This document shows positions 25,422-38,276 of a DNA stretch of 64,000 nt, piece by piece. Source of the stretch: Prochlorococcus sp. AG-363-N20. Lineage in GTDB: Bacteria > Cyanobacteriota > Cyanobacteriia > PCC-6307 > Cyanobiaceae. Each line of letters starts with the position of its first letter. Position 1 is the first letter of the stretch. A model generated the notes under the pieces. That model did no database searches, was not told the DNA's origin, and was given only the letters and a program-made list of their open reading frames with translations. The stretch is taken from contig QCFX01000001.1 in NCBI GenBank assembly GCA_003280105.1, forward strand, positions 62,001-126,000. Direction: 5' to 3'. The position numbers were made by a program, and so were the translations under genes.

Positions 25422-25588
25422 GCCCCTAAGATCGAGGGTTTATTCAAACTTTATTCAAACCGTCCATTTCCGCCCAAACCCCTTGATATGACTGAAATTA
25501 ACTACTGGCTAATGAACAGTTATAAACCAATGATACCAATGGATCTCGGCGATCTCGGTAAATCTATTCTAGCAAAATTCTAGCAAGC
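25422..25588 (+). repeat. EVE-leader repeat, copy I
   Basis: A full copy: CCCCTAAGATCGAGGGTTTA, TTCAAACTTTATTCAAAC, CCAAACCCCTTGATATGACTG, AACTACTGGCTAATGAACAG, then a diverged middle and the pair ATTCTAGCAAAATTCTAGCAAGC. The ATG opens a 31-codon frame (25488-25583) that is nearly the same in copy L. Confidence 0.9.
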
Positions 25589-25752
25589 AAATAGGCGAGA
25601 AATATTCAATTTCATCTATCACAAGTTAGATGTCGCTAAAGATGTTCGGTACTACTTAGTTTTCAAGTCACCTCAAGAAGTATTAGGAGCATTGACGTAG
25701 TAATAGTGCTTGTAATGGGCTCTCCATTGGGTTTGTCTTTGGGAGAAATGGC

Positions 25753-26814
25753 TTAATACCTAATTAAATCTCCTTGATACCTGAGGTGATTATCTTCAAA
25801 GTTCTTTTGGAGATTTTCTAGGCGAACTACAAGCTTGTTATATCTTCGTGCTGAAGCAGAATCATCAAGATCAACCAAATCAAGTCTGCAAGTATCTAGA
25901 TATTCCAAAAAGTCTTTTGGTTCACATTTCCCTGCTCCTTTCCAGGAATGGAAATCTGAATGGACATTACCTTCAACTACCAAGATATTTTCATGTAAAT
26001 CAGCCAAGTCTGGCCGAGTATTCCTATCAAACAAATGGTGTCCGTCTAATTTCAGCCTGTTTCCTTGAGTCCTTTTTCTCCCTGTTACCTCACAAGTTTC
26101 TCCTGTTGCTCGTTTTGCAGCTGAAATTGCTTTATCAATATTCTTAGGAGCAGCTTTTAGTCTTTTTATTTCTCTTTTAAAGCAATCTTCCACAACCAAT
26201 CCCACTGCATCCATCCAAGCCGTACGAGCCTTTTTTTTCTTCACAGAGGATTTCTCTCTCATGTTGATTGCCATCCTGGCTATTCCTTTTTGACTCCATA
26301 ACCTTTCTTCTTCTAAAAGCACAAAATGCTTATCTATTTCAAGAGCTTCTGGTCCTTCTGCTGATCCTTCTTTTCGAAGACGGTCCAGAGTGTTTTTGTA
26401 TCCCGTACCATTAGTTTGAAGGATGTAAATAGTGCTTTTCTTAGGAACAAAGGCCAATTCATTTTTAATAATAAAATCCTCAGCAGATTCAACAAATTCT
26501 TGAGTAATTCGACGAGAAACAAGAGTTTTCTTTCTCTTTATCCTTCTTCGAGTTAGAAGCTCTTTAATAAAGTCTAGGAAACCATTTTTATCTTTTTCTA
26601 TATAAGCAGCAATAACTTCAACACCAGCCTCTGTAAATCTCCTAGCACGTCTACTGCGTCTACCATTCCTAGTGACAAATTCAAAATGTTTACCTTCTTT
26701 AAGCTTCCACCTGCCCGTTAGACCTGAATCGAAAGTCCTTACGATCTTATAGAGACTTGGTCTACTAATACCAAGAATAGTTGCAGTTTCTTTGTCAGTA
26801 AGTAGATCCTTCAT
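25753..26814 (-). CDS. HNH-type nuclease with N-terminal helix-turn-helix
   Basis: The 353 aa product has an N-terminal MerR/excisionase-like winged helix (LLTDKETATILGISRPSLYKIV, residues 4-25) with a basic patch (RNGRRSRRARRF), a middle helical, Lys-rich region, and a C-terminal HNH-like zinc/metal finger: C241 (CEVTG), H259/H260 (DGHHLF), N276 (HENILVV), H285 and H289 (HSDFHSW). That layout suggests a DNA-binding HNH endonuclease. It follows the J-domain gene on the same strand with an 18-bp gap and lies between repeats I and J. It could be a mobile or defence nuclease; the target is unknown. Confidence 0.75.
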   Translation of the reverse strand: MKDLLTDKETATILGISRPSLYKIVRTFDSGLTGRWKLKEGKHFEFVTRNGRRSRRARRFTEAGVEVIAAYIEKDKNGFLDFIKELLTRRRIKRKKTLVSRRITQEFVESAEDFIIKNELAFVPKKSTIYILQTNGTGYKNTLDRLRKEGSAEGPEALEIDKHFVLLEEERLWSQKGIARMAINMREKSSVKKKKARTAWMDAVGLVVEDCFKREIKRLKAAPKNIDKAISAAKRATGETCEVTGRKRTQGNRLKLDGHHLFDRNTRPDLADLHENILVVEGNVHSDFHSWKGAGKCEPKDFLEYLDTCRLDLVDLDDSASARRYNKLVVRLENLQKNFEDNHLRYQGDLIRY

Positions 26815-26832
26815 TAGATAATTAAAAGGTCG

Positions 26833-27372
26833 TTAATCCATGAGGGCTATCAAGGAATCCTTCATGATATGTAAACGCTGAAAAACTCTTGGGTCACCGC
26901 CAGTATCTGGATGATGGAGCTTTGCTAAAGCCTTGAAGGCTTTTTTGACATCTTCTTTAGAAGCCGTATTGCTATCCAAACCAAAAATATGCCATGGCCG
27001 ATTGTTTTCTAAAACATCAATTCCGTTAATACATGTTGGCCCAATCCTCCCTGTCTCTTCAGGAGGAACACCGATCCATCTTCTATAGAGCTTCATCCAA
27101 TCTTCTCGGCTTCTTAACGCAAAAGTCTCTCCAGTCATTGACATCATGAATGTCTTGTCTTTTCTCAACTCCAGGGCATTCCTACATCCAAATTTCAGCA
27201 AAACTGCTGACTTGGCTTGCGCTGCAGTCATTGGCGGTTCTGAAAATGGAGCACCGTTAACTTTTTGAGCAAAATCAAAGAGGACTTCATCCGTCCACAA
27301 ATCATCTCTCCTGAGCTGAGTAATCAACTCCATTACTTGAGGTTTAGAAAGTCGCTTGCGCCTTGGTGCCAT
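26833..27372 (-). CDS. J-domain (DnaJ-like) protein
   Basis: I start at ATG (MAPRRKRLSK), two codons inside the track's TTG start. The 179 aa product has a basic N-terminal domain (~1-115, helical, unassigned) and a C-terminal J domain with the invariant HPD at 154-156 (AKLHHPDTGGDP) that stimulates an Hsp70 ATPase. There is no G/F or zinc-finger region, so this is a class III type. It is upstream of the HNH gene, almost certainly one operon; the pair may recruit Hsp70 to a DNA-handling complex. Confidence 0.8.
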   Translation of the reverse strand: MAPRRKRLSKPQVMELITQLRRDDLWTDEVLFDFAQKVNGAPFSEPPMTAAQAKSAVLLKFGCRNALELRKDKTFMMSMTGETFALRSREDWMKLYRRWIGVPPEETGRIGPTCINGIDVLENNRPWHIFGLDSNTASKEDVKKAFKALAKLHHPDTGGDPRVFQRLHIMKDSLIALMD

Positions 27373-27535
27373 AACCAATTATTAGCAGATCAGCTTTTTT
27401 ATACATTTTATTTTGCCGGGCTCTGAAAAGGCTTTCAGAACAAGGGAGGATAGAACTTGCCACATGATTCTCCCAAAGCACTGCAAAAGCTAAAAGCTCA
27501 AACCAGATAATTGAGTCAAAATGAAAAAAGGGGAA

Positions 27536-27710
27536 TCTTGTACAAATTCCAGCAAAATTCGAGCAAGCCTCTAACCCTCAACTAGCCCTCTAACCTCTTT
27601 TATCGCAATGGCTGAAAAAGATATCTCGTATTGGCTAATGAAAAGTTCCTTTTGAGTGATAGCAAGCGATCTCAGCGAACCAGGAATTTCTATTCAAACT
27701 TTATTCAAAC
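27536..27710 (+). repeat. EVE-leader repeat, copy J (closest to the live EVE gene)
   Basis: About 110 bases match the leader and first 12 codons of the EVE gene at 34561: AAATTCCAGCAAAATTCGAG, CAAGCCTCTAACCCTCAA, TTTTATCGCAATGGCTGAAA, AAGATATCTCGTATTGGC. After AAAAGTTCC it switches to the GTGATAGCAAGCGATCTCAG type 3' half and ends TATTCAAACTTTATTCAAAC. It encodes a stop soon after MAEKDISYWLMKSSF. Confidence 0.93.
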
Positions 27711-27818
27711 TAGAGAAATGGCAGAAATGAAAGAAGAAAAAATCAGGGATACATAATGAAAATGGTTATCGTTCTCATGTTCTGATATTTTCGTAGGGAG
27801 ATTGTCATTGTTCAAAAA

Positions 27819-28604
27819 ATGAGCCAGACATGGCTGATCTCGGGTTCGCCAGGCTGCGGCAAAACCAGCTGGATACTCAAAACAATGCGAAGCCATCAAG
27901 GCAAATGCGGATATTTGCGACTAGATGGCTATCCCTCTAACGAGCTAGAGCAGGTATCTGACTCAGGAATCGATAAGGCATTTCTCAAGGATCAATTCCC
28001 TGAACTAATAGATCTATCGGGTTCCCATCATGCCTCCAGATCGCAACAAGGCGACCTGCTCACATTGATAGAGCTTCCCCAGTTCCAGGCTCCTCAGCAT
28101 GCAGGCATAACGGGTATGGATCCTCGCGTCAAAAATCAGCTTGAAGCCTTGCAACTTCATCCTGACAGGTATCTCCACTTTGGTCGGGATCCTGAATTAC
28201 CAAACAAAGACACATTGGAATTCAAAAAACTTGAATATTTCAGCCTCAGTCTTAAAGCCAGCGTCTGGGATCCACCCAGTCTGAATACCTTGTGGTTCGA
28301 GCTAGTGAACGGAGCATATGGCGACGTCTATCGAGCTAAGGCCTTGATGAACTTGCCAGATGGTCGCTCTATGTTCTTCAACTGGATCGTGAGTCAAGAA
28401 AGCTCACAGTTCCTTCCACTTGAAGAAATTTCAGCTCCAAATGGCAGGCCTGCCAGCTTATCTGAGCTTGTCGTGCAAGGAAAACATCTTGATGGCTTAC
28501 GTATTCAATCAACGATCGACCTCTGCCTACTAAACGATGCCGTACTTGAGATGCATCAAATGCCTCTTAGGGATCGACAAAAAGAAGCTATTCCCTCAAC
28601 TTAA
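27819..28604 (+). CDS. CobW/G3E-family P-loop GTPase
   Basis: The 261 aa product has a Walker A motif at residues 9-17 (GSPGCGKTS) and a C-terminal CobW-like segment (GAYGDVYRAKALMNLPDGRSMFFNW). Compared with canonical CobW/COG0523 metallochaperones it is short and lacks a clear CxCC motif. G3E GTPases deliver metals to enzymes. It precedes two metallophosphoesterase-like genes, 5 bp and then a 4-nt overlap apart, so a metal-delivery role for those proteins is a reasonable inference. Composition is visibly more G+C-rich than neighbours, suggesting transfer. Confidence 0.8.
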   Translation: MSQTWLISGSPGCGKTSWILKTMRSHQGKCGYLRLDGYPSNELEQVSDSGIDKAFLKDQFPELIDLSGSHHASRSQQGDLLTLIELPQFQAPQHAGITGMDPRVKNQLEALQLHPDRYLHFGRDPELPNKDTLEFKKLEYFSLSLKASVWDPPSLNTLWFELVNGAYGDVYRAKALMNLPDGRSMFFNWIVSQESSQFLPLEEISAPNGRPASLSELVVQGKHLDGLRIQSTIDLCLLNDAVLEMHQMPLRDRQKEAIPST

Positions 28605-28609
28605 TCGCC

Positions 28610-29425
28610 ATGAATCACGCAATTATCTCCTGTCTACACGCCAATCTCCCTGCAGCGGAAGCTGTCTTGAATGACATTGATAGGCAAGGGATTGACACCA
28701 TTACCTGTCTTGGTGATCTAGTGGGCTATGGCCCCCAGCCCAACGAAGTAGTTGAGCTGATACGAAAGCGTGGTATAGCGACCTGCCAGGGCTGCTGGGA
28801 TGAAGATATCATCGATGGTCTTAATGCCTGCGAGTGCAGCTACCCTTCTCAGCTAGCAGAAAGACGTGGGCACCTGGCCCACCAATGGACAGATGATCAG
28901 CTAACGGACGAAAACAAAAGTTTTTTGGCCAGCCTCCCAACATCATTACGTCGTGATCGACTCCTCTTCGTGCATGGCAGTCCCAACAGTCAGCATGAGT
29001 ATCTTCTGCCGGACATGGATGCATTTGCAGCTCTCGAGCGAGTAGAAACAGCAGGGGCCGATATTCTCTTTTGCGGGCATACTCACCAGCCTTATGTACG
29101 TGAATTGAGAGATGGATCTATTCGTGTACGTTTACAAAATGCCGACCATGGCAACGATCAGGGTGAAGAACTAACCCTGCCGATGCGCAAAATCGTCAAT
29201 GCTGGATCAGTGGGCGAGCCACGTCATGGAAGTACCAATGCCACCTATGTAATTCACAACGATGCAACTGATGAAGTTGAGATAAAAGAGGTGGCCTATG
29301 ACGTTGGTCGAACGTGTCAAGCGATTGTCGAGGCGGGGCTACCGAAAGTCTTCGCATGGCGATTGAGTCATGGTTTTGAATTCGCCGAACAGGCTGAAGA
29401 TGCAAGTCATGTGTGTGAACGATGA
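28610..29425 (+). CDS. Metallophosphoesterase with substituted metal ligands
   Basis: The 271 aa calcineurin-like phosphoesterase shows the family blocks in order: ISCLHANL (residues 6-13), LGDLVGYGPQP (34-44), QGCWDED (60-66), HGSPNSQ, GHTHQPYV and NAGSVGEPRHG. In the first block the usual Asp (D-x-H) is Cys8, and in the third the usual Asn of GN-x-D is Cys62. The other ligands remain. This suggests altered metal choice or activity. It is the middle gene of the CobW operon. Confidence 0.85.
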   Translation: MNHAIISCLHANLPAAEAVLNDIDRQGIDTITCLGDLVGYGPQPNEVVELIRKRGIATCQGCWDEDIIDGLNACECSYPSQLAERRGHLAHQWTDDQLTDENKSFLASLPTSLRRDRLLFVHGSPNSQHEYLLPDMDAFAALERVETAGADILFCGHTHQPYVRELRDGSIRVRLQNADHGNDQGEELTLPMRKIVNAGSVGEPRHGSTNATYVIHNDATDEVEIKEVAYDVGRTCQAIVEAGLPKVFAWRLSHGFEFAEQAEDASHVCER

Positions 29426-30135
29426 TTGAAAGATGGGCACTAGTAAGTGGTCTACGCGGAGATCTCGAGACCTATGACCTCATTCAACGGGATCTAAAGA
29501 AGACTCGTGGAGTTACAGCCTTATTTGTCCTTGGAGACCTCGTCGGGCCCGAACGCAACTGTGACGCACTCTTAGATCGACTAAAAAATCCCCATCGCGG
29601 CGATTTAAAACCAGATTGCATCTATGGCTGGTGGGAAGAGCAACTACTTGCAGAGCGTGGGTTTCGTGGTGAACGCAAAGCTGATGCTCTGCGGCTCAGC
29701 CAAGGTGAAGACGCAGTCAGCGCACTGCTAAATACGGTTAATCCTTCTCACCTGAAATGGCTGGCATCACTGCAATTTGGCTTCATTGAACTTGACTGTG
29801 CACTCATCCATGGGAGCTCTTCAGACGTGGGTGACAACCTCACATCTGAAACGTCTCCACTGATCCTCCTTGATCGACTCACCCGTCTCAATGTGAACAG
29901 ACTGTTCACAGCGCGCAGTACTAAACAATTTCATCTTGAACTGACTGGAGGAGGGATCAACTCACAAGTAAAGGATCTGAACGGCAAACGTGAACAACAA
30001 CAGGAAGTTCCCAAGCGAAGCGTGATTGGAATTGGCGCTGGTTTGAATTACACCCTTTATGACATTGGTAGCGATAAAACGCACTTCCTTACCGCCGGCA
30101 GCAAAACAAATCCCAAAGGGAAGGGTTTCGCATAA
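29422..30135 (+). CDS. Degenerate metallophosphoesterase paralogue
   Basis: The 237 aa product keeps the phosphoesterase skeleton but with most ligands changed: LVSGLRGDLETY replaces D-x-H, LGDLVGPERN keeps the GD block, YGWWEEQ replaces GN-x-D, and IHGSSSD keeps one His; the GHTH block reads FTARSTKQF. It overlaps the preceding gene by 4 nt (ATGA). It is probably a non-catalytic partner of that enzyme, a pseudoenzyme derived by duplication. The C-terminal tail is glycine/lysine-rich. Confidence 0.7.
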   Translation: MIERWALVSGLRGDLETYDLIQRDLKKTRGVTALFVLGDLVGPERNCDALLDRLKNPHRGDLKPDCIYGWWEEQLLAERGFRGERKADALRLSQGEDAVSALLNTVNPSHLKWLASLQFGFIELDCALIHGSSSDVGDNLTSETSPLILLDRLTRLNVNRLFTARSTKQFHLELTGGGINSQVKDLNGKREQQQEVPKRSVIGIGAGLNYTLYDIGSDKTHFLTAGSKTNPKGKGFA

Positions 30136-32373: not shown

Positions 32374-34110
32374 TTATTGTTCTAATCTAATTTGATGATT
32401 CAAGGGTAAAGCTGAGATTTTATCACTTACAAGTATATTTTTTTTGAAAAAATCATCCCAACCTTGATCCTCTACTAAAACGACAAGATCATCAATTTCA
32501 TCGCACAATTCAAAAACAGATAACTCTTTAGTTCTTAATTCCGTATTTCCTCCCCATTCTTTCAATGAGTCTGGCAAATCTCCAGGTTGAGCCCAAGTAG
32601 TGGCAAGAAGCATATACTGCTCGATGGTCCAAGCAACCGCTCTATCGACCTCAATCCTATAAAAGCATTCAGTATACCTAGATCTCGAACGATCATTAAA
32701 ATCAACTGAAATGCCAAATTTTAAAAACGAGTTATCTACTTCGACAAAATAAAACTCCGTAGGGATTGAGGCCCATAAAGGATCTGATTTGAATGTTTTA
32801 TATGAATCTCTACCTCTATTAATATCTCCACATTTTTGACAACCTCTTCCAGCCATATGATCTCTTGCTAATTGCTTAAATTCACCATGCTCAGGTATTG
32901 GACAAACAATAGTAACTATATTCATAGTGACTTTTGAAAAGTCTTTAACTAACTCATATGAATACTTATTTGAATGTTGTTCATTCGATCTTTTTATCCA
33001 TTCTTCTTTCCCAATGGGTCGAACTTCATGCCATAAATATTCCATATGACACTTTCTACAACCGCCTTTGAAATGAAGTATTGGCGCTTGATGGAATGCA
33101 CCATGAACACTGCAAATAATCTCTACTGGTGTATGTGATGGAGCTTTTTTCGAGAGTACAACTTTTGAATAGTCATATTTACCACCATGTTTTTCTTTAG
33201 CTCTCCTTAAAAATTCATCTAATTTCAGGGATAGTTTTTCAGAAGATGTTTCTTTTGCACATTTCGGACAACCACCTCCGCCTAAATGAACGGATGGCAA
33301 TTGAGGGAAGAGCCCATGATCGTCCTTACGACATTTTATAAGCACTTGATTTGTACTACCCGTATATAAGACAAGTGAATAGTCATACTTCTCTTTATGT
33401 ATCTTTTTAGCTTCATCAATAAATTCTTCATTTGTTTTTCTACACCTCAAACCTGTAGCAATGGCCGCACATAACTGGCAGCCACTATTTCCTCTCATGA
33501 AACTATTCGCTTCAGTTTCAAAGAATCCATGCCCTGGAACTTTACAGCCAACTTCTATTTGATCATGTAGATTTTCATAGCTAATTCTTGATAAGTCATA
33601 TTTGTCTTTATATCTTTCTTTGCATCTGGCTTTAAAGGTATCTAGTGGCAAGACTTGGTCTAATCTTGCTCTATTAAGATTGCATAGATTACATCCTTGC
33701 CCAGCGAGATGCTTAGTACCTTTTTGTCTAAATGGCTCATGCTCTGATACCGGGCAATTAATTAAATATTTATCAGTTTTATATCTAAAAGATTTAATTA
33801 ATTCATAAGAATAATACCCATCATGAACTTCATTGGCATCATTGATGAAATCATTCAAGGTATAAGGAGTAATACCCAATGCTTCGTTTTTTAATCTAGT
33901 TTTTTCTTTGCTCTTTATTGACTGGCAAGTAACACATCCTTTCCCCATACCTTTACTTTGATAGCAAGGTGAAAAATGATCACCTTTCTTGCATTTATTC
34001 CTAGGAAAGTATTTTTTTAATTGCAACTCCTCTGCTTTTTTTGCAGTGGTTGGCATATCAAGCCATTCAATTGGGACCTTTTTGAAATCGGTTATTTCTC
34101 CATATTCCAT
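32374..34110 (-). CDS. Zinc-finger-repeat protein with GIY-YIG-like C-terminus
   Basis: The 578 aa product has about five tandem ~60-residue units of the type K-Y-D-Y-S...-C...H-G-x-F...H-x-x-G-x-G-C-x-x-C (for example KYDYSLVLYTGS ... HLGGGGCPKC), plus an N-terminal half unit (GKGCVTC). Each supplies Cys/His for a treble-clef-like zinc finger. The C-terminus (TEFYFVEVDNSFLKFGISVDFNDRSR, near 455-480) resembles a GIY-YIG nuclease domain, although the second tyrosine motif is unclear. Similar proteins occur in phages and as homing-type nucleases. It is the single gene between repeat L and the EVE gene. Confidence 0.75.
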   Translation of the reverse strand: MEYGEITDFKKVPIEWLDMPTTAKKAEELQLKKYFPRNKCKKGDHFSPCYQSKGMGKGCVTCQSIKSKEKTRLKNEALGITPYTLNDFINDANEVHDGYYSYELIKSFRYKTDKYLINCPVSEHEPFRQKGTKHLAGQGCNLCNLNRARLDQVLPLDTFKARCKERYKDKYDLSRISYENLHDQIEVGCKVPGHGFFETEANSFMRGNSGCQLCAAIATGLRCRKTNEEFIDEAKKIHKEKYDYSLVLYTGSTNQVLIKCRKDDHGLFPQLPSVHLGGGGCPKCAKETSSEKLSLKLDEFLRRAKEKHGGKYDYSKVVLSKKAPSHTPVEIICSVHGAFHQAPILHFKGGCRKCHMEYLWHEVRPIGKEEWIKRSNEQHSNKYSYELVKDFSKVTMNIVTIVCPIPEHGEFKQLARDHMAGRGCQKCGDINRGRDSYKTFKSDPLWASIPTEFYFVEVDNSFLKFGISVDFNDRSRSRYTECFYRIEVDRAVAWTIEQYMLLATTWAQPGDLPDSLKEWGGNTELRTKELSVFELCDEIDDLVVLVEDQGWDDFFKKNILVSDKISALPLNHQIRLEQ

Positions 34111-34341: not shown

Positions 34342-34483
34342 CTCTAAACAACCAATGCCTAAAAGAATCCTCAACTGCGTCTGTTGCGGCTTGCCCTGGG
34401 AGGTTTCAAACAAGTACCCAGCTACGTCGGTACGATGCTGTTGGCCAGATAGACCCCGAATCCTCGGAGTCAAAATGGAAAAG

Positions 34484-34605
34484 GGAAAACTTGCTCAAAT
34501 TCCAGCAAAATTCGAGCAAGCCTCTAACCCTCAAAAAGATCTCTACCTTCTTTTATCGCAATGGCTGAAAAAGATATCTCGTATTGGCTAATGAAAAGTG
34601 AACCA
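34484..34605 (+). repeat. EVE gene leader and 5' end, the source of the dispersed repeat
   Basis: AAATTCCAGCAAAATTCGAG, CAAGCCTCTAACCCTCAA, TTTTATCGCAATGGCTGAAA, then codons for YWLMKSEP. Copy J matches it almost perfectly, and all other copies match the section from the CTTGATATG position to AATGAAAAGT. Confidence 0.9.
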
Positions 34606-35040
34606 GATGTATACGGAATCAACCATCTCAAAAAAGAAAAAGAGACTTTATGGGATGGTATCAGAAACTATCAAGCGCGTAATTTTATGCGCTCAATGAA
34701 GATAGGAGATCAAGCATTCTTCTATCATTCGAATTGCACTCCTCCATGCATAGTCGGGATGATGGAAGTCACAGAAACAAACTTAATAGATCCAACTCAA
34801 TATGATACTAATTCTAAATATTATGACGCGAAGTCAACTAAAGACAAACCTCGCTGGGATTGCGTGAAACTAAAGTACTTAGGTATTTTTAATAACCCAT
34901 TAACTCTTGCAGAACTCAAGGTAACTTATTCCGAAGAAGAGCTAAAAGTAGTGCAAAGAGGTAATAGACTTTCGATAATGCCTGTAGATAAGAAAATAGC
35001 CCTTCTCTTAATAACAAAATTGGGTGATCTTCATAAATAA
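34561..35040 (+). CDS. EVE-domain protein
   Basis: The 159 aa product is one EVE (PUA-like) domain: ISYWLMKSEPDVYGINHL at the start, WDGIRNYQARNFMRSMKIGD, FFYHSNCTPPCIVGMMEV and the closing helix. EVE domains bind modified bases in DNA or RNA and often sit in defence or RNA-modification settings. Length is normal and all core blocks are intact. The 5' end of this gene is repeated about twelve times across the preceding 34 kb, making it a probable integration or recombination target. Confidence 0.93.
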   Translation: MAEKDISYWLMKSEPDVYGINHLKKEKETLWDGIRNYQARNFMRSMKIGDQAFFYHSNCTPPCIVGMMEVTETNLIDPTQYDTNSKYYDAKSTKDKPRWDCVKLKYLGIFNNPLTLAELKVTYSEEELKVVQRGNRLSIMPVDKKIALLLITKLGDLHK

Positions 35041-36662: not shown

Positions 36663-38276
36663 ATGGTACTTTCCTCAATTAATAAAGAAAACGACGTTCT
36701 CCAAGAAATTGGGACCTTGGCAATAGACCTAGGGAATAACACTACTGTAGTGGCATTTCAAGGGGAGTTCGCAGATGAACCTAGGCTCTTACATTTGCCT
36801 CCTATAAGTAGAGACAAAGGAGAAGTGCCTAGCCTTGTTTATTACGATGAGCAAACAAACCACCCACTCTTTTTAATAGGGCAGCAGGTTCTAGATCGTG
36901 ACCTGAAAGAACTAAAAAACAACCAGATTTGTAGTGACTTCAAGAGATGGATAGGAAGTAAAGACAACTATGGTTTCCCTTCAAATTATCCATCACCGGA
37001 GGAGGCTGGGGAAAAGCTTTTAGAAGAAATATGGAAGAGAATTCCTCCAGATTTGAAAGTTAAAAGGCTTGTTTTAACTGCTCCTGTTGAAACTTATAGA
37101 GCTTATAGGTCTTGGTTAAATAAAGTCTGCAGTTCTTTCTCAGTAGATGAAATAGCGCTTATAGATGAGCCTACAGCTGCAGCAATGGGTGCAGGTTTAC
37201 CAGCAGGATCAAAGCTTTTAGTAGTCGATATAGGAGGAAGCACAATTGACATGTCTCTAGTTGCGCTTGAAGGAGGGGAAGGCAAAGCTGAACCAGTTGC
37301 ACAGTTACTGCGATTTGACGGCATAGATCTTGAAGGGAAAAGCAAACAAGTTTTACGTTGTGCAAAAGTTCTTGGGAAATCAGGGCAAAGATTGGGCGGC
37401 AGAGACTTTGACCGATGGATAGTTAGCAAACTCCATCCCAATCTTTCAATAACAGAATCTCTTTTAAATTCTGCAGAGAAATTAAAATGCCGTCTAAGTG
37501 ATGAAAATATAAGTGAAGGTGAATTGCTTGTTGAAAGTTACACAGAGGTTTCTCAAAACAAAACTTTTAATCTTTCATTAACCAGAAAACAACTTGAAGA
37601 ATTGCTAGTTGAAAGAGGGTTGATAAAAACTCTCAAAAGTTTGTTTACTCAAACTTTTAAAATAGGTTTATTAAATAATTGCAAGCTGGAAGATCTAAAT
37701 GGGGTTGTAATTGTAGGTGGAGGAGCAAGGATTCCATTAGTTCGTAGATGGTTAGAGAAAGAAATAGAGCCAGCGCAATTAATAACACCACCTCCAATAG
37801 AGGCTGTGGCTAAAGGAGCCTTAAAGCTTACCCCTGGAGTTAAAATTCGTGACCTGCTTCACAGAGGTGTATCGATTCGCTGCTGGGACAAGAAAAGTAA
37901 TCGACATACTTGGTACCCATTATTTGTTGCCGGACAGCCTTGGCCTACAGAAAAAAATCTTGAATTAATCTTGTCCTCAAGTAAAGATAATCAACAAGAA
38001 ATTGAATTAGTACTAGGTGAACCAGAAATCAAAGGAATGCAAGAAGTTGTTTATATCAATGGAATACCTAAGGTGACCGATCAAAAAGAAGGCTCTGAAG
38101 TTATCCCATGGGATGGTTCAAATCATTGTGTTTTTCTAGATCCTCCAGGTCAACCAGGACAAGATTGTTTAAAGCTTAATTTTTCGCTGGATCAAGAATG
38201 TCTCTTAATTGTTGAATTGCAAGATATACGTTCAGGCCAAGAACTTGGAAGATTAATACTTGGATCTGTAAGGTAG
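36663..38276 (+). CDS. Hsp70-family (DnaK-like) protein
   Basis: The 537 aa product has Hsp70 nucleotide-binding signatures: TLAIDLGNNTTVVA (near residue 17), LLVVDIGGSTIDMSLV (~184), VVIVGGGARIPLVRRWLEKE (~349). It is shorter than DnaK (~630 aa) and its C-terminal ~150 residues do not form a typical substrate-binding domain, so it is a divergent paralogue, not the housekeeping chaperone. A possible partner is any J protein; the island's J-domain protein is one candidate. Confidence 0.88.
   Translation: MVLSSINKENDVLQEIGTLAIDLGNNTTVVAFQGEFADEPRLLHLPPISRDKGEVPSLVYYDEQTNHPLFLIGQQVLDRDLKELKNNQICSDFKRWIGSKDNYGFPSNYPSPEEAGEKLLEEIWKRIPPDLKVKRLVLTAPVETYRAYRSWLNKVCSSFSVDEIALIDEPTAAAMGAGLPAGSKLLVVDIGGSTIDMSLVALEGGEGKAEPVAQLLRFDGIDLEGKSKQVLRCAKVLGKSGQRLGGRDFDRWIVSKLHPNLSITESLLNSAEKLKCRLSDENISEGELLVESYTEVSQNKTFNLSLTRKQLEELLVERGLIKTLKSLFTQTFKIGLLNNCKLEDLNGVVIVGGGARIPLVRRWLEKEIEPAQLITPPPIEAVAKGALKLTPGVKIRDLLHRGVSIRCWDKKSNRHTWYPLFVAGQPWPTEKNLELILSSSKDNQQEIELVLGEPEIKGMQEVVYINGIPKVTDQKEGSEVIPWDGSNHCVFLDPPGQPGQDCLKLNFSLDQECLLIVELQDIRSGQELGRLILGSVR

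Follow-up and report, generated by a model that had tools for sequence, protein, structure and literature searches.

A gene for a J-domain protein (J) and a gene for a winged-helix and HNH protein (H) are paired in cyanobacteria far above chance, and the pair moves horizontally as a unit, recently between genera. The pair studied here lies in a 64,000-nucleotide stretch of contig QCFX01000001.1 of Prochlorococcus sp. AG-363-N20 (hereafter, the window; Table 1). In our judgement there is about an even chance that J-H is a defence-type module of two genes, spread horizontally and directed against phage or other invading DNA, in which J and DnaK gate the nuclease H. A role in defence is indirectly supported by the data presented below, and unproven.

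Table 1. Positions of the J-H genes, their cassette and the associated EVE-domain sequences in the window.
Feature	Position	Strand	Description
Mobile cassette unit	25440..27646		95% identical over 2.2 kb to G051 (L046:9096-11312); flanks differ
Left flanking repeat (repeat I)	25423..25588	+	Degenerate 5′ end of EVE gene and its upstream region
H	25753..26814	-	353 aa, ATG start
Domains of H			wHTH, residues 7-73; second HTH/wing-like unit, 115-188; long helix, 195-236; HNH bba-metal domain, ~240-292; C-terminal helix
J stop to H start gap	26815..26832	-	18 nt
J	26833..27372	-	179 aa from ATG; helical N-terminal domain, 1-125; C-terminal J domain, 126-179; HPD, 154-156
Right flanking repeat (repeat J)	27526..27711	+	First 121 nt 92% identical to 34479-34599, start of intact EVE gene
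Intact EVE-domain gene (PF01878)	34561..35040	+	5′ end is the recurrent insertion site

The initial annotation of this DNA, made from the sequence alone, described a two-gene operon, and both reading frames are present on the same strand, J before H, with the short gap that it gave. It also regarded the combination as not a standard pair; in agreement with this, neither NCBIfam nor PADLOC holds a model for H, and a search of the open-licence literature returned no paper describing a J-domain/HNH operon. When 201 Cyanobiaceae genomes were searched with H alone, a full-length or near full-length H was found in about 35 of them, with J adjoining in each, and H without J occurred only as fragments; the distribution is patchy, the pair being present in about 18% of Cyanobiaceae. 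A scan of GTDB, again with H alone, gave 45 loci, all 45 with J directly upstream on the same strand and all from Cyanobacteria except for one record titled Bifidobacterium, which we took to be a mislabelled MAG. We have seen J-H only in Cyanobacteria, its absence elsewhere being a weak indication from this one single-pattern scan. Both genes were present in 29 of 386 genomes sampled across the phylum, where they formed 31 pairs, every one of them adjacent and with J directly upstream of H; in the same set J stood alone in two genomes, and the cases of H only were either fragments or G280, whose very divergent H again adjoins a J-domain gene. It is because no full-length H locus was found without the pairing that we place it far above chance, and the homologues are not normally alone, a finding that the annotation had named as one that would refute its reading. 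Moreover, the evolutionary distances of J and H are correlated (r=0.927 over 62 pairs), a value reached by 0 of 2000 shuffles, and although identity drops to about 17% for H and 25% for J, the HPD and the HNH residues are retained. A highly divergent J-domain gene and HNH gene are still adjacent at L213:4399-6085, downstream of a gene for a 1330-aa protein that looks like magnesium chelatase ChlH, and this pair suggests that the association of J with HNH is wider than the J-H family. Orphan J genes without H were found in two cyanobacterial genomes of another branch (L209:5775-6323 and L210:6383-6934), which counts against the defence reading.

H has the two parts that the initial annotation had read in it, a winged helix and an HNH domain. 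Its AlphaFold model (mean pLDDT 84.5) contains a beta-beta-alpha segment at residues 256-292, and C241, H259, H260, N276 and H289 are invariant among 26 divergent relatives, H285 being nearly so. A Foldseek search aligned H with two phage HNH-type proteins, over 91 columns at 2.7 Å and over 85 columns at 1.6 Å, with a probability of 1.00 (the second of these targets carries the UniProt name cytochrome), and weakly with the HNH nuclease of retron I-A (54 columns, 2.6 Å, probability 0.51). This resemblance settles the concern, raised beforehand, that the HNH residues might not superpose on known HNH folds: H combines the bba-metal fold with the conserved H-N-H residues of an HNH nuclease. The N-terminal winged helix is HTH_17/HTH_23-like, with excisionase/MerR-type proteins as its Foldseek neighbours. 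Profile searches with the window H gave no Pfam HNH family at E<=1, only weak sub-threshold HTH matches, no NCBIfam family at E<=0.01, and noise only from the PDB. The two HTH-wing units look alike as a structural impression only, an internal duplication being not significant by hhalign (E=0.099). The best reading of H is a DNA nuclease with HTH-wing DNA-binding units and an HNH active site that would cleave DNA, and the findings point to an undescribed nuclease family widespread in marine and freshwater cyanobacteria.

J carries a J domain with the HPD between helices II and III, as is characteristic of Hsp40 proteins. Its score against the Pfam family PF00226 narrowly missed the cut-off of 27.8 bits in a single-protein search (25.7 bits, E=1.2e-5) and was above it in a whole-genome search (27.9 bits), while Foldseek returned J-domain matches with a probability of 1.00 and the HPD was invariant in 62 of 62 relatives. 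J is not a DnaJ of type I or II, as PF00226 is the one DnaJ family that Pfam finds in it, its J domain is C-terminal, and it has no G/F region, zinc fingers or C-terminal client-binding domains; the annotation had likewise described an intact HPD and neither a G/F nor a zinc region. The same annotation had proposed as a candidate partner the divergent Hsp70/MreB-like protein encoded at window 36663-38276 (+). We rejected this candidate as a dedicated partner, for it is a Cyanobiaceae core gene, present in 76 of 76 high-quality genomes of the family with or without J-H. Two full DnaK genes are present in other parts of the genome, and the host DnaK on which J would act may be one of these.

J, without H, was also found in phages. 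Eleven IMG/VR contigs (L215-L225) match residues of about 44-179 of J at 43-45% identity with the HPD intact, and in these the viral J forms the C-terminus of an LPD1 (polyvalent-protein) protein of ~930 aa (e.g., L216:5679-8492 and L219:5712-8480). In L219 the gene immediately preceding LPD1-J encodes the portal protein, and after LPD1-J come other head genes and a serine integrase. G126 has another J, more distant and likewise with an intact HPD, in the head module of a prophage, where portal and minor-head genes lie upstream of it. In the J tree, the LPD1-linked sequences have the Cyanobium-type cassette Js as their neighbours (support 86/87 and 84/93, within a clade supported at 98/97), and this position fits a capture of J by phage, with the root assumed at the midpoint and an unrooted tree being unable to prove the direction of transfer. 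H was not found with the phage Js, annotated phages and plasmids gave no direct J-H matches, the only viral relative of H was a single HNH-domain match (L131), and viral scans with two further J sequences gave no matches. Polyvalent proteins have been described as injected with the DNA (PMC7824862) and, judging by its gene position and family, the LPD1-J protein may be injected in the same way. We also observed RIDALKRxCxTGYSCGxxCIS motifs repeated through the LPD1-J protein and the product of the next gene.

Under the defence reading, J would be an obligate co-chaperone of H, binding it through its N-terminal/middle domain, and its HPD would recruit the general DnaK of the host, so that H would be held inactive, or properly assembled, as long as the cell is healthy. 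Infection would then disturb the arrangement of J, DnaK and H, and the released H might cut the DNA of the phage, of the host, or both; in cells entered by a phage that brings extra J, within a polyvalent protein packaged in the head, H would remain off. The direction of this gating is guesswork. We prefer a brake, since the phage Js keep a working HPD and come without H. In the reverse arrangement J would deliver DnaK to activate or load H, as a sensor or activator instead of a brake, and the phage J would be a competitor. This is a live alternative that seems to us rather unlikely, even though the same J-H linkage data speak for it and DnaJ/DnaK remodel replication initiators such as RepA. 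A further point in its favour is that bNACHT25 needs the co-chaperone activity of DnaJ, with a working HPD, to sense phage (PMC12169576); the intact HPD of the phage Js, which a pure decoy need not keep, speaks against it, as weak evidence either way. The brake and the defence reading face objections of their own. The DnaJ proteins of jumbo phages have been interpreted as serving the Hsp70 needs of the phage itself (PMC7824862), and the phage J described here may do the same; the LPD1-J phages may not infect J-H hosts; and neither protein is represented in PADLOC (version 2.0.0, 0 families at E<=1 for J or H). A more specific proposal is that of a new kind of immune system: an HNH nuclease would be gated by a dedicated Hsp70 co-chaperone, and phages would package the captured co-chaperone in a polyvalent protein to neutralise that nuclease at DNA entry. 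This we regard as unlikely.

Several known systems resemble J-H in part, and three of them, the wH-HNH type IV enzymes, bNACHT25 with DnaJ and the SecB-controlled toxin-antitoxin system, are precedents for the defence reading. Type IV restriction activity has been described for proteins that combine a winged helix with HNH (PMC11037411), and the wH-HNH and PUA-wH-HNH enzymes of this group (HhiV4I, SruGXI; PMC11037411) are like H in joining a winged-helix reader and a C-terminal HNH in one protein, and in having no linked methylase. H differs from them in its greater length (compared with the wH-HNH type), in its two HTH-wing-like units, the first of the MerR/excisionase type, and in its obligate J-domain partner. 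The AlphaFold model shares the wH and HNH architecture of type IV enzymes, a likeness of architecture only by which we claim no family membership, and PDB profile and Foldseek searches showed no sequence relation of H to winged helices of the DpnI/HhiV4I type. The link between bNACHT25 and DnaJ resembles J-H in tying Hsp40 co-chaperone activity to antiphage immunity with DNA degradation, but there an NLR-like protein uses the host's own DnaJ, whereas in J-H a dedicated J is encoded with the nuclease. The chaperone SecB controls a toxin-antitoxin system, as quoted in PMC7159879, and the TAC systems quoted there similarly encode a chaperone-family gene with a toxic effector that it controls; they consist of three genes and their SecB-like chaperone acts on the antitoxin, whereas in J-H there are two genes, one of them for a J-domain protein. 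Retron I-A, whose HNH nuclease is the weak fold match mentioned above, likewise uses an HNH nuclease as defence effector, but J-H is without reverse transcriptase or ATPase and the control of the effector differs. Finally, the polyvalent LPD proteins of phages (Iyer et al., 2017, as cited in PMC7824862) are where the J module was found, in the LPD1 protein of head modules, and the papers found describe no component of the J-H type in them. If the defence reading is true, a dedicated partner couples the on/off state of a defence effector to the Hsp70 chaperone cycle, a form of control that the open-licence papers searched do not describe among known nuclease systems, and the phage-borne J provides a ready-made test of counter-defence by partner mimicry.

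The genomic neighbourhood bears on the same question. At E<=1e-5, 100 proteins from the neighbourhoods of J-H matched 133 PADLOC families, compared with 39 for a single control set of 100 proteins drawn from the same genomes. Ten large neighbours include a Type I restriction subunit (HsdR), a pAgo-like and a Ppl-like protein, and a relative of DISARM/BREX-type helicases. This enrichment of defence neighbours near H is suggestive only, because the counts are of families matched, and a single protein can account for many of them.

The initial annotation placed the pair in a cassette between two repeats, and this proved right, the repeats being duplicated 5′ ends of an EVE-domain gene. The cassette has a close counterpart in G051, a different genus, in which the core DNA adjoining the cassette matches that of the window at 68-80% and the core Hsp70-like protein at 62%. 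Between the window and the G051 copy, dN/dS is 0.20 for H and 0.43 for J, in keeping with purifying selection. J-H is present in EVE arrays of this kind at six further loci (L046, L047 and L076-L079), in either orientation, and the array looks like the outcome of repeated insertion at the region of the EVE start codon. No tyrosine recombinase was found within the window; three are encoded elsewhere in the genome. In strain G181, and only there, the pair is an integron gene cassette: an attC-like site begins at the stop codon of H, the array contains more such sites, and 2.2 kb from the pair an intact IntI is encoded (462 bits, over the cut-off). This does not hold for the window, and most other J-H loci have unrelated neighbours.

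These observations bear on a role in mobility, which the annotation had also put forward and in which H would be a homing or insertion nuclease that inserts the cassette encoding it, at the EVE 5′ end or at another site. HNH combined with HTH is common in homing enzymes, and the window cassette is bounded by EVE-start repeats. We nevertheless consider this role very improbable. The pair occurs at many unrelated sites without EVE repeats, and the fixed occupied target site of a homing endonuclease was not seen; homing is not known to involve a J partner. As other window cassettes between the same repeats (carrying a cupin, a phosphoesterase or a 577-aa protein) are without J-H, and the integron integrase moves the pair elsewhere, J-H is cargo carried by several vehicles and not mobility machinery.

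Cargo of this kind could also be an addiction module resembling a toxin-antitoxin system, with H as the toxic nuclease and J (with DnaK) as the antitoxin, which would stabilise cassette arrays and integrons and not defend against phage. Toxin-antitoxin pairs are common in cassette arrays and integrons, where J-H is found as well, the operon has two genes with the small one first, and H without J exists only as fragments. We still think it improbable, given that J shows about the same degree of conservation as H and its J domain is complete, that orphan Js exist, and that a J module in phage head-module proteins fits a conflict with phage better; the addiction and phage-conflict readings are compatible with each other. 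Likewise, the HTH units and the conserved operon would suit a housekeeping or regulatory role, in which H, as a regulator that binds DNA or a nuclease of DNA repair, would depend on a dedicated chaperone, a role that we hold to be the least credible, set against the patchy distribution, the island location, the horizontal transfer and the decay to fragments in G003, G100, G115 and G416.

The EVE array of the window has further contents. Degenerate EVE 5′ ends precede the intact gene at window 11366, 17141, 17484, 23563, 23686, 25488, 30304 and 32176, and the small cassette that each of them borders is a different one. One of these cassettes, at 27819-30135 (+), contains three genes, for a P-loop-like protein (no Pfam match), a calcineurin-like phosphoesterase (PF12850) and a third protein (no Pfam match). 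The 577-aa protein (32374-34110, -) forms its own cassette in the array; it has no Pfam or NCBIfam match, and shows repeated HGxF..H..G.GCxxC motifs, which are zinc-finger-like, and a possible C-terminal GIY-YIG-like stretch.
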